NCBI GenBank assembly: GCA_029881795.1 | Contig: JAOULX010000002.1 | Span: 1-64,000 of the forward strand | Reading direction: 5' to 3' | DNA from: Gammaproteobacteria bacterium | GTDB lineage: Bacteria > Pseudomonadota > Gammaproteobacteria > SZUA-229 | DNA length: 64,000 bases | Program-made: the position numbers and the translations under genes | Shown: positions 3,431 through 10,673 of the stretch, piece by piece | Position numbering within the stretch: the first letter of the stretch is position 1 | Layout of the letters: each line of letters begins with the position of its first letter | The notes under the pieces: model-generated | Told to the model about the DNA's origin: nothing | Databases searched by the model: none | The model's input: the letters and a program-made list of their open reading frames with translations, nothing else

Positions 3431-5227
3431 ATGAGTACATGGTTAAATAACCTTTCTATTAAAGGCAAGATCAGCGCGGGTTTTATTCTGGTATTGCTGC
3501 TTGCTATTTCTTTGGTCGCTATTTCGGTATTGCGCGAGACCAGTGCTGTTATTGAAGAGGCTGAGAGTCGTGAACTAAATCGATTATATCAGAATGCGGT
3601 ATCAATTCTTGATAGTCGGGCAGAGATGGCTAGCAGCTTGGCTAATATGGTTGCGTCTCTGGATTCGGTGCAAGGTCTGGCTGCCCGGCAAGATCGTAAA
3701 GCTTTGTTTGAAGAGTTACAGCCAGTCTATACAAGACTGAAAAGCCGCTATCAGGTTAAGCAGTTTCATTTCCATACGCATGATAATCATTCTATGTTGC
3801 GCGTTCACAAGTCTCCAAAATTTGGAGATGATCTGTCCGGTTTTCGATCTATGGTGGTGGATGCTAATCGTCAAAAAACCGAGTTTAGTGGATTGGAAAA
3901 GGGTATAGCCGGGATTGGTATTCGCGGTATTGTGCCAGTGCAGCACCTTGGGCGTCACATAGGTACAGTCGAGGTCGGGATGGCATTGGGCCAGGATTTT
4001 GTTGACGATTTTAAGAAGCAATACGATACCGATATTACGATCTATGTTAAAAATGGGGCAGGCTATAAGGTCAGCGCAAGTACCCATGAAATGAAACGTA
4101 TTACTGATGGTAGTTTTAATACGGTGTTTGGCGGCAAGGTGATGATGAGTGATATGGAGTTGCTTGGACGCCCGATGACAATGTTGTCTAAAAGTATTAA
4201 TGATTATTCTGGTCGCCCTATTGCTGTAGTGGAGCTGGCGATGGATGCCAGTCACTATAAGCAACAACTATTTGATGTGCAGAAAATGGTTTTGTTAATC
4301 GGCGTTATTACTTTGGTTATCGGTATTGTTGTCTCAGGAGTTATCAGTGGTTTGATCACTCGGCCTATCAAACAGGCAATGGATATATTTTCACAAGTTG
4401 CCAGTGGTAACTTCTCCGTCAACATTATTTCCCGCTCCAAAGATGAAATGGGACAGATGATGCAGGTTTTGGACAATATGGTAAATAACCTGTCGGCACT
4501 GATTGGTAAAACAAGAGACTCCAGTGCTTCATTGGTAAGCGCATCTCAGCAAGTTAGTGCGGCGGCGAATTCTCTTAGTCAGGGGGCCAGCGAACAAGCA
4601 GCGAGTATGGAGCAAACTAATGCATCTTTGGAAAATATGCAGCATACCATTGAGAAAAACAGTGAAAATGCAAAAGCTACTGAGTCACTGGCACTAAAAT
4701 CAGCGGTATCGAGTAAGGAAGGTGGAGTGGCAGTGAAAGATACGGTTGAGGCCATGCATAAAATTCAGAAGCATATCAGTTTTATTGAAGATATTGCCTA
4801 CAAGACCAACTTGTTGGCTTTAAATGCTTCGATTGAAGCAGCGCGAGCAGGTATTCATGGTCGTGGTTTTGCTGTTGTGGCCAATGAAGTTCGTATCTTG
4901 GCTGAGAGTAGTCAGGAGTCTGCACAGGAGATACGTGTTCTCACCGATGGTAGTGTTGCGGTCGCTGAAGAAGCTGGAGCCCTTATCGATGATGTTGTTA
5001 ATAGCGTACAAAACACAAGTGCTTTGGTGCAAGAGATTAGTATTGCTTCTGAGACACAAGCAAATGGTGTTCGAGAGGTTTCAACTGCTATTTCTCAATT
5101 AGATAAAGTGGCTCAGGAAACGGCGGGTTCATCCGAAGAATTATCAGCAACAGCAGCTGAGTTGAATCGCTATGCTGAAAGTATTCAGGCTGATTTGAGT
5201 CAGTTCCGTTTGAAAGATGTGGCTTAA
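3431..5227 (+). CDS. Methyl-accepting chemotaxis protein with Cache-like periplasmic sensor and HAMP
   Basis: TM, periplasmic domain, TM, HAMP, then MCP signalling hairpin tip [50 protein letters not shown]. Confidence 0.95.
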
Positions 5228-5262
5228 ACGACCGTTTTACTGGTGATGTGAAAAGTCTTATC

Positions 5263-5302
5263 AGAGAACGGTTGCCTCTAATGTTAGAGGTGACTGTTCT
5301 CT
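5263..5302 (+). terminator. Long hairpin after the MCP gene, probable terminator
   Basis: AGAGAACgGTtgCCTCTAA-tg-TTAGAGGtgACtGTTCTCT, then a weakly U-rich stretch. Confidence 0.55.
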
Positions 5303-5374
5303 GTCTTTAACTTTTAATTACAGCAAACGCTAAACCGTGTTCATGTGTTTTCTGGGTTGGTTGTTAAGCCAGCA

Positions 5375-6514
5375 TTAACGCCGATAAAGTATCACCGCTG
5401 CGCGTAAACCAGACTGACCAAAACGAAAACTGCGATTAAAAGCATCGCGGGCTACCGGCAGGTAAATGTTATCTGTTTCGGAACGATAGGTTTCTTCATC
5501 GACTTCCGGGTCATGGATGTAGACGAAGGTGTCGTCTATGCCGCTGACCACAACCCAGTGCGGTGCTTTGCTGCGTGTAAAGCTGTAGGAGCTGATCAGA
5601 ACCAGTGCTACGCCACCCTCCTTAAGGGCTTGTTCGAGCTGTGCTATACCGATGGTTTCATAGTGCACCTTGATATCAGCTTCTCCGACCTGTTGCATAA
5701 AATCCTCATGCACAAGGCTCATAACTTCTTTTTTTGCTTCGCTGCGTACACCATCAAGAAATAGTGGATCGCGACTGTTTAGCCATAGTTCTACCTGAAA
5801 CTCTCGCCGCCAGGCTGCCAGTGCCAGTCCCGGTGGGCTGCAGCCACCATGACCTGAGGTCATAAAGATTGTGGTGGCCTCGCGCCATAACTGCAATTCC
5901 ATCGTGCGGTTGGGTTTGATGCTATTGTCCAGTGCCTGCATAGCCATGATTAATGATGCTGGGCCGCAGGTAAAATCTGTGGTTTGCTGGTAATAGGGTA
6001 CCGGAATGAAATCGAGCTGATCTTCACGGTATAAAATTCGTTTCTGGTAGCGCAATGCATCGGCATGGTCTTCGTAATAATCTTTTAGTAAACCAAAAGG
6101 GACGTAGTGATTGCGTTGATAGAGACGAATGGCTGAAGTGTTATTGGGGTGCACTTCAAGTCGCATATAAATGCAGTCACGCGAGGCCGCAAGATTTTCC
6201 GCCTGCTGCAATAATAATTCACCCAGACCCTGGCCGCGCGTCTCGGGTAATACTGCCAGCGAGTAAACACGCGCAAGGTGAGTGCCCCGATGATACAGCA
6301 CCAGAATATAGGCCAGGGTGTTATTGTCTTGCCGGGCAAGAATAAAATCACAGTTACCCTTCTGGATCATGTGTTTCAGATTACGGCGCGACATGCGGTC
6401 TATTTTAAAACAGCGTTTTTCAATTCTGTCCAAATCGTCCAGATCTTTAATCGTTGCGCTGATGAACTCGATCGATTTGCCGGATGTTGTATCTTTATTT
6501 TGCATGCTATGCAC
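5375..6514 (-). CDS. GNAT N-acetyltransferase fused to a C39-like peptidase domain
   Basis: N-terminal GNAT (LAVLPETRGQGLGELLLQQAE...EVHPNNTSAIRLYQRNHY); C-terminal C39-like YQQTTDFTCGPASLIMAMQAL...HWVVVSGIDDTFVYIHDP. Confidence 0.88.
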   Translation of the reverse strand: MHSMQNKDTTSGKSIEFISATIKDLDDLDRIEKRCFKIDRMSRRNLKHMIQKGNCDFILARQDNNTLAYILVLYHRGTHLARVYSLAVLPETRGQGLGELLLQQAENLAASRDCIYMRLEVHPNNTSAIRLYQRNHYVPFGLLKDYYEDHADALRYQKRILYREDQLDFIPVPYYQQTTDFTCGPASLIMAMQALDNSIKPNRTMELQLWREATTIFMTSGHGGCSPPGLALAAWRREFQVELWLNSRDPLFLDGVRSEAKKEVMSLVHEDFMQQVGEADIKVHYETIGIAQLEQALKEGGVALVLISSYSFTRSKAPHWVVVSGIDDTFVYIHDPEVDEETYRSETDNIYLPVARDAFNRSFRFGQSGLRAAVILYRR

Positions 6515-7613
6515 TTAGCCCTTGTAATGCTTGCCGAATGATCTGGCGACCGCGCAATAATACCATCTCCTGCCAGTCTGCTGTAGCGGGATAAAAATGC
6601 TGACGTAATTGCCGTTTTATTTTTTGCACGTGGCTATCTCGCCAGTTGACTGTGTGACGATGTAGCATATGATCCAGACGTAAGATGTCAAACATCTGCT
6701 CGACTGGGTAAGTACCAAACTCAAGGGTAATAAAACACAGTTTGTCTGCCAGACAGTTTTGCCAGTAATAATCCACTAGCCCGTCCTTGGGTACAGAGCT
6801 GGAGCTGCCCAGAGCCGGCTCGGTGACGCTCTGGCCATAGACTTGTTTTGCCCATTGCACGCCCTTCGATTCTGGCGGGTGATCACAAATCAATTCGCCA
6901 TAGCCAAACGGGCCCAGTCCGGTGTGAATATCAACGACGGCGACGTACTCGCGTTTTAACAGTTCAAAATCGGTGATGATTTGTTGCAGATATAGTTGTG
7001 ACTGACTGGCTGCCTGGCCGCCATAAAACAGGCCGTCGGCGAAAGCATACTGGCCACCACTGACCGCCTGTTCAAAGGCGACTTGTCCCAGTTGCTGTCG
7101 GGCTAATTGTAATTTCCTGTCGGCCTCGTTGATGTTTTTCTCGCTGCCAGGTAATAGTAGTTCAGCCAGTTCTGCATACGCGGTGTTGTCCGGTAAGGGT
7201 GCATTAAAATCAACAAAGTTTCGATTTAAGTCAATGCCGTTTTCGTTTACCCGACGTAGCCAGGCAAAACCATATGGATTAAGAGCATGAATAAAAAGGA
7301 TGGCCAGATCATCGTCAAGTTTAGATTCAAGGAAGTCATCAAGGCAGTCTATTTGAATAGCCGAACCGGCAAAACCTTCGACGCCATGGGTGGCACTTTG
7401 CAGTACCAGAACACGTTTTGCATTGGGGTTTCCTAACCAGTAAACAGAGCTGAATAATTTTTCATTGGTCGGGCCCTTTTCCCTATAGACAAACTCACGG
7501 TATGCGCTATGATCATGTCGATCACAGGCATGTCTGAACTTGATATGTGCCTCGGTGTAGTCAGCGGCAAAGCATGCTTTAAGACGATCAGGGGAGAGCA
7601 GGGTTGGAATCAT
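6507..7613 (-). CDS. DUF2817 / M14-like metallopeptidase
   Basis: LVLQSATHGVEGFAGSAIQ (Zn-ligand region), HALNPYGFAWLRRVNENGIDLNRNFVDF, VVDIHTGLGPFGYGE; overlaps the start of the GNAT-C39 gene. Confidence 0.85.
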   Translation of the reverse strand: MIPTLLSPDRLKACFAADYTEAHIKFRHACDRHDHSAYREFVYREKGPTNEKLFSSVYWLGNPNAKRVLVLQSATHGVEGFAGSAIQIDCLDDFLESKLDDDLAILFIHALNPYGFAWLRRVNENGIDLNRNFVDFNAPLPDNTAYAELAELLLPGSEKNINEADRKLQLARQQLGQVAFEQAVSGGQYAFADGLFYGGQAASQSQLYLQQIITDFELLKREYVAVVDIHTGLGPFGYGELICDHPPESKGVQWAKQVYGQSVTEPALGSSSSVPKDGLVDYYWQNCLADKLCFITLEFGTYPVEQMFDILRLDHMLHRHTVNWRDSHVQKIKRQLRQHFYPATADWQEMVLLRGRQIIRQALQGLSA

Positions 7614-7766
7614 GTTAACCTGTGAGAAACAACGGTAAGCTGTAAGAGGTATAGTTGAGCAAATGCAATTTTACATCGTTATGATGAAAAATGCTTTTTT
7701 TTTAACTCCTCAACCCTTCCCACCCGGCCGAGACGTCTTTTTTACCTTTCATTTTAGTGATGCCAT

Positions 7767-9248
7767 ATGCACTCAGTAATTATTGTTGTTGATGATCCAC
7801 AGGACTGGACCGCCTTTTATCCGTCCGATAATGTCATAGGTGTGCAGGATTATCTGCGCCAAAATGGCGAGCTTAATACAGCTGCAACTCAGGTCATTAA
7901 CCTGTGTCGCAGTTACAAGTACCTAACTAATGGTTATTATTGTTCACTGCTGGCCGAGGCGCGTAATCACAAGGTTATTCCTTCTGTGCGCAGTATCAAT
8001 GACCTGAGTAATAAATCCCTCTATAGTCTGGATATTGGTAATCAGAATCAGCTGCTGGAAAAAGCTCTGCGAGAGCGGTCGCTTGAAGATGGCAGCCTTA
8101 GCATCAAACTTTTTTTCGGTATCACCGATATACCGGAACTGGAAAATCTTGGGCGTCAGATTTTTGAGCTGTTTCCCTGCCCCATCCTGGTATTGACGAT
8201 CTGTCATCGCGAGCGCTGGTTTATTGAATCCATCAAACCTGGCGGCATTAATGATCTGAGCAGTCACGACGAAGATGTTTTTGCTGTGGCGCTGGAAAAA
8301 TTTAACAAGTCAGTATGGAGGAAACCGCGTTCGAAAAAACGAGCCCGTTATGACCTGGCTATTCTGGTGGACCCGCAAGAAAAACTACCACCAAGTGACA
8401 AAACCGCTCTTAAAAAATTTATCTCGATCGGTAAGCAACTGGGTGTTTCGGTAGAGCTGATTGGCAAACAGGATTACATCCGGCTGGCCGAATACGATGC
8501 ACTTTTTATTCGTGAAACCACCGCTATCGATAATCATACATACCGTTTTGCCAAGCGTGCCGAGAGCGAGGGTATGGTGGTGCTCGACGATCCGCAGTCT
8601 ATCTTGCGTTGTACCAATAAAATTTATCTGGCAGATATGCTGAGCAACCATGGCATACCGACACCGACCACGCTGATACTTAGCAAGGACCGGCAAAAAG
8701 AGGATATGCAAACGGCAATCGATTCGCTGGGGTTCCCGATGGTTTTGAAAATTCCGGACGGTTCTTTCTCTCGCGGCATTGTTAAAGTGGAAAGCTTGGC
8801 TTCTCTTAAAAAACATCTCGGCGAGCTGTTTAAACAGTCTGCCCTGGTACTGGCGCAGGCCTTTACTTATACCGAATATGATTGGCGCATTGGTATTCTG
8901 AATAAAAAACCGATCTTTGCCTGTAAATACTTTATGTCGCGTGGTCACTGGCAAATCTATAAACACAGTGCCAGTGGGCAGGTTGAGTCCGGTGATTTTC
9001 AAACCATTCCTGTTTATGAAACCCCTAAAAAGATACTGGACGTGGCAACTCGTGCGGCTAATTTGATCGGTGATGGTCTATACGGTGTCGATATAAAACA
9101 GATTGGTGATAGTGGCGTCGTAATCGAAGTAAACGATAATCCCAACATCGATGCCAGTGTAGAGGCAAAATTTCTTGGCGATGATCTGTACCGCATTATC
9201 CTCGAAGAGTTTATTCGCCGGCTGGAGCGTAAACGCATCGGGATTTAA
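7767..9248 (+). CDS. RimK-family ATP-grasp ligase with N-terminal RLAN-type domain
   Basis: C-terminal ATP-grasp (GFPMVLKIPDGSFSRGIVKV...GLYGVDIKQIGDSGVVIEVNDNPNIDA) with a ~200-aa N-terminal extension. Confidence 0.9.
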   Translation: MHSVIIVVDDPQDWTAFYPSDNVIGVQDYLRQNGELNTAATQVINLCRSYKYLTNGYYCSLLAEARNHKVIPSVRSINDLSNKSLYSLDIGNQNQLLEKALRERSLEDGSLSIKLFFGITDIPELENLGRQIFELFPCPILVLTICHRERWFIESIKPGGINDLSSHDEDVFAVALEKFNKSVWRKPRSKKRARYDLAILVDPQEKLPPSDKTALKKFISIGKQLGVSVELIGKQDYIRLAEYDALFIRETTAIDNHTYRFAKRAESEGMVVLDDPQSILRCTNKIYLADMLSNHGIPTPTTLILSKDRQKEDMQTAIDSLGFPMVLKIPDGSFSRGIVKVESLASLKKHLGELFKQSALVLAQAFTYTEYDWRIGILNKKPIFACKYFMSRGHWQIYKHSASGQVESGDFQTIPVYETPKKILDVATRAANLIGDGLYGVDIKQIGDSGVVIEVNDNPNIDASVEAKFLGDDLYRIILEEFIRRLERKRIGI

Positions 9249-9537: not shown

Positions 9538-10673
9538 TTAACTAGACAGAGCTGCGGTTATTTTTGTCAATAGTTTATCGAAGTTAAATGGGCGTGATAC
9601 GACGCTGGTGGCACCCTGGTTCATAATGTCTGCCAGGTTCTGCCGAGTTGCCTTGCTGGTGAAGACGATAGTGGGGGGCATTTTGTCTTTGTGTAAGATG
9701 TTCCCCATTTTTACAATTGCGTTGGATTGCATTCCGGAAATTTCATTGTTAATAAAAATCAGTGATGGCATGTTTTCCAGCATTTTTGAAAGAGCAGCTT
9801 TACCGTTTGTTGAATAATAGGTGGTGAATTGCTGTTCATTGAAAAAATGATTTAGTTCGGCACTTGAGACAGGGTTGTCGTCAATAACCATAATATATTT
9901 TTCGTTTCCGAGAAGGGAAAGTGCTGGTTTTCTCAACTCCTGATTTTTTAAATATTCATTAAAAAATATCCGTTTGTCGTTTGTCATCTCAGTTTCTGTG
10001 GTTGAGATGCGGTTGTGAATAATTTCCTGAAGTCTGCTGTTGAATGTCGGTGTAAAACTTTTAGCATCTTTGATGCTTAGCATTTTTTCGTATTTGCTGG
10101 TTTTTAGTTCTTCTGAATAATGTTTGATGTCGCTGTTCAGGTTGTTCTCTAGCTGATTGAGTCGTGTGCTGAGCGGATTTTGTGATGGTGTGGTTTGCTC
10201 AGTTTCGTCATTAGCGAACAGGTTGCTCTCATTGTCGTTGAGCCAGCTTGTTGACAGTTCTGCGGTTTCTTTTACTTTTTCTTCAATGCTGAGCAACCTG
10301 ATAGCCTGTGAGACGCAGAAGCGCAGTCTGAATTCGTCATGTAGCGGGCTGGCCACAAGGTAGTCATCAAAAATAAATTCACGACACATTGCATAGGCGT
10401 GCTCGCTTTCATGCTGTTTGCATAACAGAATGGTTTTCTGCGCGTTTTAATCATACCGTTGGTTTGCTGGTAAAGCTGGAGGTATTGTTTTTCGGCAGTA
10501 TCTGCATCTTTGAAGCAGAGTAAAAGAACGCAACTTGAGTTTTGCGGGATATGAGTGGCGGCATGCGGGATATCTGTGGCTATTGTGGTATTCGGAAAAG
10601 ATTCACTAATCATTGTGTTGATGACTTTGAGCAGAGGTATGTTGTCGCCAAAAATGATGATTGGAGTATCCAC
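9538..10673 (-). pseudogene. Two-receiver (REC...REC) response regulator, interrupted by an apparent 1-nt frameshift
   Basis: ORFs 10272-10673 and 9538-10389 overlap in different frames; joined reading gives ...QQTNGMIK(N)AQKTILLCKQHESEHAYAMCREFIFDDYLVASP; C-terminal REC KYIMVIDDNPVSSAELN...VVSRPFNFDKLLTKI. Confidence 0.7.

Follow-up and report, generated by a model that had tools for sequence, protein, structure and literature searches.

A conserved GNAT-C39 and RLAN-RimK gene pair, with DUF2817 as an optional third member, forms a predicted amide-ligase cassette in gammaproteobacteria

Several known systems are close to the cassette considered here. The RimK ligase of the RimABK system poly-glutamylates the ribosomal protein S6, LysX and ArgX ligate amino acids onto a carrier protein, and the C39 peptidases of ATP-binding cassette (ABC) exporters cleave double-glycine leaders. 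In 2009, Iyer, Abhiman, Burroughs and Aravind reportedly described amidoligase neighbourhoods where ATP-grasp, GCS2-type and GNAT ligases stand with peptidases; RLAN neighbourhoods are reportedly among those listed. A later survey, citing Iyer 2009, states that fusions of DUF3335 to GNAT domains are frequent and that these GNAT domains are possibly peptide ligases or acetylating enzymes (PMC10318531, 2023). In the RloABC operon of Pseudomonas aeruginosa, whose function is partly known, an ATP-grasp protein is again accompanied by a peptidase (PMC12239564). Here we consider a cassette with the enzyme classes of the amidoligase neighbourhoods, and for which the same general proposal can be made, in the first 64,000 nucleotides of contig JAOULX010000002.1 from a gammaproteobacterium (GenBank assembly GCA_029881795.1; this whole stretch is called the window below). 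It comprises a gene fusing a GNAT domain to a C39-like DUF3335 domain (GNAT-C39), a DUF2817 gene and, divergently oriented, an RLAN-RimK ATP-grasp ligase gene (Table 1). The general idea is already published as a prediction, and the cassette is of a predicted, uncharacterised type.

Compared with RimABK, the locus shares a RimK-like ATP-grasp domain with an aligned catalytic core and the link of a ligase to peptidases. However, the 493-residue ligase carries in addition an RLAN domain (about 150 residues), N-terminal to the ATP-grasp domain (Pfam E values of 1e-48 for RLAN and 1.5e-8 for RimK), the peptidases are of other types, and the score against the curated RimK family is below the cut-off (85.7 versus 143.4 bits). 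Similarly, the ligase recalls LysX/ArgX by its ATP-grasp fold and by the HW motif that in the RLAN family aligns with LysX, but the LysX equivalog is matched below its cut-off (72.1 versus 275.6 bits) and the cassettes share neither a LysW-type carrier nor LysZ/LysY-type genes. RimK and LysX give the best sequence-profile matches. As for RloABC, its retropepsin-like secreted protease and its transmembrane inactive transglutaminase are not among the families of the window cassette. The first-pass annotation placed the three genes correctly, and family matches bear out its domain calls, with one refinement. The cysteine peptidase, described there as C39-like, does belong to the papain-like superfamily that includes the exporter leader peptidases, but its family is DUF3335 (PF11814; E 6.6e-92, next to a GNAT match of E 3.9e-16) and not the double-glycine-leader family PF03412, for which it scores 21.2 bits against a cut-off of 22. 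It is fused to GNAT, and, as had been noted, no ABC transporter is fused to the cassette or recognised adjoining it in the window. The third protein matches DUF2817 with E 2.4e-104, falls below the cut-off of Pfam Peptidase_M14 (17.1 versus 21.6 bits, E 0.0045) and weakly matches MpaA (E 3.8e-4).

The GNAT-C39 and RLAN-RimK genes are conserved partners and form a real cassette, associated far beyond chance. Among 274 gammaproteobacterial genomes, RLAN was found in 63, a strong DUF3335 match in 44 and a strong DUF2817 match in 11. RLAN was also present in 43 of the 44 DUF3335 genomes (Fisher p 1.6e-33), and in 40 of these 43 the two lie less than 5 kb apart, the three exceptions having them on separate contigs of draft genomes. 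Random placement is assumed in these linkage statistics, without correction for shared ancestry; the tree of the loci shows that they are divergent. In a survey of 138 RLAN loci, 104 had a GNAT+C39 gene beside RLAN and 19 a GNAT gene in which no C39 domain was detected, while the other 15 had neither. The two genes are divergent in Pseudomonas and in the clade of the window, and co-directional in many other loci. Thus, the earlier suggestion of one linked system of ligase, acyltransferase and peptidase activities holds for this pair, whose members are nearly always neighbours. A gene of the CorA transporter family stands near RLAN-RimK in 47 loci (e.g., L090 9549-10499), nearly all of them from the set of named genomes, mostly Pseudomonas.

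The first-pass annotation would have been refuted by a lack of conserved co-occurrence, and the near-constant pairing of GNAT-C39 with RLAN-RimK shows that this refutation fails. DUF2817 recurs as a third member of the cassette, though an optional one. It is present in 10 of the 138 RLAN loci, lies within 2 kb of RLAN in all five genomes containing both (a chance of about 5e-13 under random placement), and is kept while the flanks change. Indeed, in the ten loci with the complete trio, the trio is the sole block common to all or nearly all, and the flanks vary apart from a DUF155 neighbour in three. In most of them DUF2817 overlaps or abuts the GNAT-C39 gene, and its distribution requires at least three changes on the tree. 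At the level of whole genomes, the co-occurrence of DUF2817 and RLAN is not significant alone (p 0.08). DUF155 genes (RMND1/Sif2-Sif3 family) also adjoin RLAN cassettes at loci L143, L161, L173, L177, L180, L192 and L196; they co-occur with RLAN in 20 of 36 genomes (Fisher p 4.8e-6), six within 5 kb, and the genome of the window is without DUF155.

A sister version shows how the set is built. A single clade (support of 100 in the Shimodaira-Hasegawa-like approximate likelihood ratio test, SH-aLRT) unites ten RLAN loci that lack GNAT. In all ten, RLAN-RimK is accompanied by a GCS2-type carboxylate-amine ligase, and in nine by a stand-alone C39-type peptidase and an N-formylglutamate amidohydrolase (FGase), in the order C39_2 > RLAN > GCS2 > FGase. 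DUF3335 is missing from all ten FGase-linked genomes. Because the C39 domain of this sister version (type B) is related to the DUF3335 domain of the window version (type A; hhalign probability 96%), the common core consists of the RLAN ligase and a papain-like enzyme. GNAT, GCS2 and the metallo-amidase are alternative additions, and the set is modular. In other RLAN loci, a gene for an M20 peptidase (10 loci) or an M14 peptidase (4 loci) stands divergently beside the pair. Some of the M20 genes probably serve arginine biosynthesis, since an argA-like gene follows in two loci by our reading, and this linkage is given little weight. Grouping the DUF2817, FGase and M14 neighbours into one superfamily was unsupported (hhalign probabilities of 0.2-27%), and homology is not claimed.

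Every enzyme part has kept its catalytic residues with little or no variation. An alignment of 65 RLAN-RimK proteins shows no change at the ATP-grasp residues K285, K328, Q364, D372, R374, D442, E454 and N456, nor at N45, L46, Y57, Y58, S60, A65, R66, G118 and P139 of the RLAN domain. In 52 aligned GNAT-C39 proteins, Q177, C183 and H319 of the peptidase domain are invariant and D335 nearly so; the Q177/C183/H319 pattern is the one expected of a papain-like enzyme. In the GNAT part, R82, Y84, S85, R118, E120, Y137, Y147, D149 and K158 are invariant. Its nearest relatives are the protein N-alpha-acetyltransferases Ard1, RimI, NatC and Naa60, by Foldseek of the model and by PDB sequence search; the top 50 Foldseek matches listed for the GNAT-C39 model were GNAT proteins, and the C39 part was compared by profile search. 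Across eight trio members, H76xxE79, D128-x-N130-R131-N132, H230 and E298 of DUF2817 are invariant. Judged by its motifs, this is the pattern of an M14-type zinc peptidase, with HxxE...H (H76, E79, H230) as putative zinc ligands and E298 as the candidate catalytic glutamate. A search for solved structures of RLAN, DUF3335 and DUF2817 was negative for all three.

Table 1. Cassette features in the window, with the evidence for each (pLDDT, predicted local distance difference test).
Feature	Coordinates	Strand	Description and evidence
GNAT + DUF3335 fusion (papain/C39-like cysteine peptidase)	5375..6514	-	379 amino acids, GTG start; AlphaFold2 mean pLDDT 91.7
GNAT domain, residues 29-136, N-alpha-acetyltransferase-like	6107..6430	-	Pfam, Foldseek and PDB sequence search; conserved residues
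DUF3335 C39-like cysteine peptidase domain, residues 172-376	5387..6001	-	Family match and conserved Q177, C183, H319, D335
DUF2817 M14-like zinc peptidase/amidase	6507..7613	-	368 amino acids; family match and conserved motif residues
Divergent intergenic region, 153 bp	7614..7766		Without conserved open reading frame; without listed sigma-70 consensus match
RLAN-RimK ATP-grasp ligase	7767..9248	+	493 amino acids; AlphaFold2 mean pLDDT 87.2
RLAN N-terminal domain, residues 26-173	7842..8285	+	Family match and invariant residues
RimK-like ATP-grasp domain, residues 239-466	8481..9164	+	Curated families, alignment, fold and profile matches

In the window, the GNAT-C39 and DUF2817 genes share 8 bp (6507-6514), and a 153-bp gap separates the two from the divergent ligase gene. 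In this gap, similarity among close relatives is patchy and no promoter match is listed; promoter counts were below the shuffled mean, so that the scan gave no support to a regulatory site there. Facing the end of the GNAT-C39 gene, a terminator-like hairpin with a 19-pair stem (5262-5303, plus strand) follows a chemoreceptor gene (3431-5227).

What could such a set of enzymes do? With about even confidence, we predict that the trio forms a single pathway for the non-ribosomal synthesis and processing of an amide-linked peptide. In the manner of RimK and LysX/ArgX, RLAN-RimK would use ATP to activate a carboxylate and would couple an amino acid to it, glutamate being the likeliest, and the RLAN domain would probably select the acceptor. 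The GNAT domain may acetylate the amino end of the peptide, while the fused papain-like domain may cleave or transfer the peptide, so that its amino end is exposed or removed. Finally, trimming or recycling would fall to the M14-like DUF2817 protein, through hydrolysis of an N-acyl bond or of a terminal amino-acid bond.

Several observations weigh against this proposal. A recognised partner is missing beside RLAN at a small number of loci, L079 and L146 among them. DUF2817 is missing from most RLAN loci, and six of the 11 DUF2817 genomes have it without RLAN. In a Foldseek search with the AlphaFold2 model, Ddl, ArgX/LysX and RimK match the ATP-grasp fold about equally well, and glutamate is argued solely from the relatives and from the GCS2 and FGase of the sister version. 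Among solved structures, the DUF3335 domain comes nearest to BtrH_N, with a weak match by profile search (E 1.4e-3), and BtrH is an acyltransferase; on that ground the C39-like domain may transfer rather than cleave. A literature search gave no experimental account of the cassette, and no substrate, product or phenotype is recorded.

The product may also be a modified protein. RLAN-RimK would then add residues to a cellular protein, at its C-terminus or on a side chain, as RimK does with S6, the linked peptidases and GNAT removing or capping the tag. We regard this as unlikely, though far from negligible. It agrees with RimK being the nearest characterised relative by curated family and with the likeness of the GNAT part to protein N-terminal acetyltransferases. 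Moreover, in both the RimK/RimB and the RloC/RloA systems of Pseudomonas, a peptidase is the partner of an ATP-grasp protein (PMC11957791, PMC12239564). However, the genome has a separate canonical RimK, over the cut-off with 282.9 bits, on the same contig and about 72 kb from the cassette (G000 C19:80828-81682), and because of it S6 is an unlikely target of RLAN-RimK. It should also be noted that no gene for a target protein is conserved near the ten trio loci, and that the peptidases of the cassette are not RimB-type retropepsins. The GCS2 and FGase families of the sister cassette are known mainly for acting on small glutamate compounds. Because the sister version has these two enzymes, a free small peptide or conjugate of the glutamate type seems somewhat more likely than a protein tail.

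A variant in which both ends of one cellular protein are edited is doubtful. The fusion would cleave and re-acetylate the N-terminus, and RLAN-RimK would add, and DUF2817 remove, C-terminal residues, giving a reversible tail editing distinct from RimK/S6. The maturation of actin in animals by ACTMAP and NAA80 follows a comparable logic. We find it similarly improbable that DUF2817 is an unrelated passenger and that only GNAT-C39 and RLAN-RimK form the functional unit. The small share of RLAN loci with DUF2817 and the non-significant genome-level co-occurrence speak for a passenger, but its adjacency to RLAN wherever both occur, its overlap with or abutment on the GNAT-C39 gene, its retention between changing flanks and its repeated change on the tree all oppose it.

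Biosynthesis on a carrier protein, in the manner of LysW with LysX/ArgX, would have the ligase attach an amino acid to the carrier, for protected biosynthesis, and a metallopeptidase release it. It could draw on the ArgX-LysW and LysX structures among the best fold matches, on the HW motif and on the ArgE-like M20 peptidase divergently beside the pair in 10 loci. Yet the cassettes share no gene for a carrier protein and no kinase or reductase partners, and ordinary arginine biosynthesis may explain the M20 genes, so that we hold this reading to be very improbable. Least credible is the maturation of a ribosomally synthesized and post-translationally modified peptide (RiPP), with the C39 domain cutting the leader off a gene-encoded, graspetide-like peptide modified by the ATP-grasp enzyme. 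Both ATP-grasp and C39-type domains are found in RiPP systems. The ATP-grasp ligases of graspetides are the subject of PMC8939145. Nevertheless, a double-glycine-leader RiPP is disfavoured because no transporter is recognised beside the cassette and because the proposed check for a linked precursor was negative: across six trio loci, no small open reading frame was conserved, except for short frames in L069 and L070 only, which are probably a decayed gene. In addition, the domain belongs to DUF3335 and the ligase is RimK/LysX-like with an RLAN domain. Two further readings, a defence system and a phage one, were considered and rejected: no PADLOC model of anti-phage defence matched the three proteins, and PHROGs matched only generic acetyltransferase and RimK-like parts.

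Elsewhere in the window, a response-regulator gene is apparently split by a frameshift (9538-10673, minus strand). The open reading frame with the receiver domain (9538-10389) overlaps an upstream frame (10272-10673), and receiver-like sequence (HESEHAYAMCREFIFDDYLV) runs on upstream of the listed start of the first frame; the split could be a sequencing error or mark a pseudogene. Remains of mobile elements (106-949) lie about 4.4 kb from the cassette. They include a truncated Mutator-family transposase (518-949) and an open reading frame (106-474) without Pfam match that we take, by its appearance, to be a fragment of a REP-associated transposase.

Returning to the proposed amide-ligase pathway, this analysis adds four points to the published prediction: the statistics of the near-obligate pairing, the place of DUF2817 as an optional partner, a sister version with FGase and GCS2 that is monophyletic, and the likeness of the GNAT domain to N-alpha-acetyltransferases. 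With the pairing, the unchanging active sites and the modular swap of GNAT/DUF2817 for GCS2/FGase, the old prediction becomes open to specific tests. Many species of Pseudomonas have the RLAN ligase, a strain of P. aeruginosa among them, and the cassette could yield a metabolite not described so far or modify proteins in a new way.

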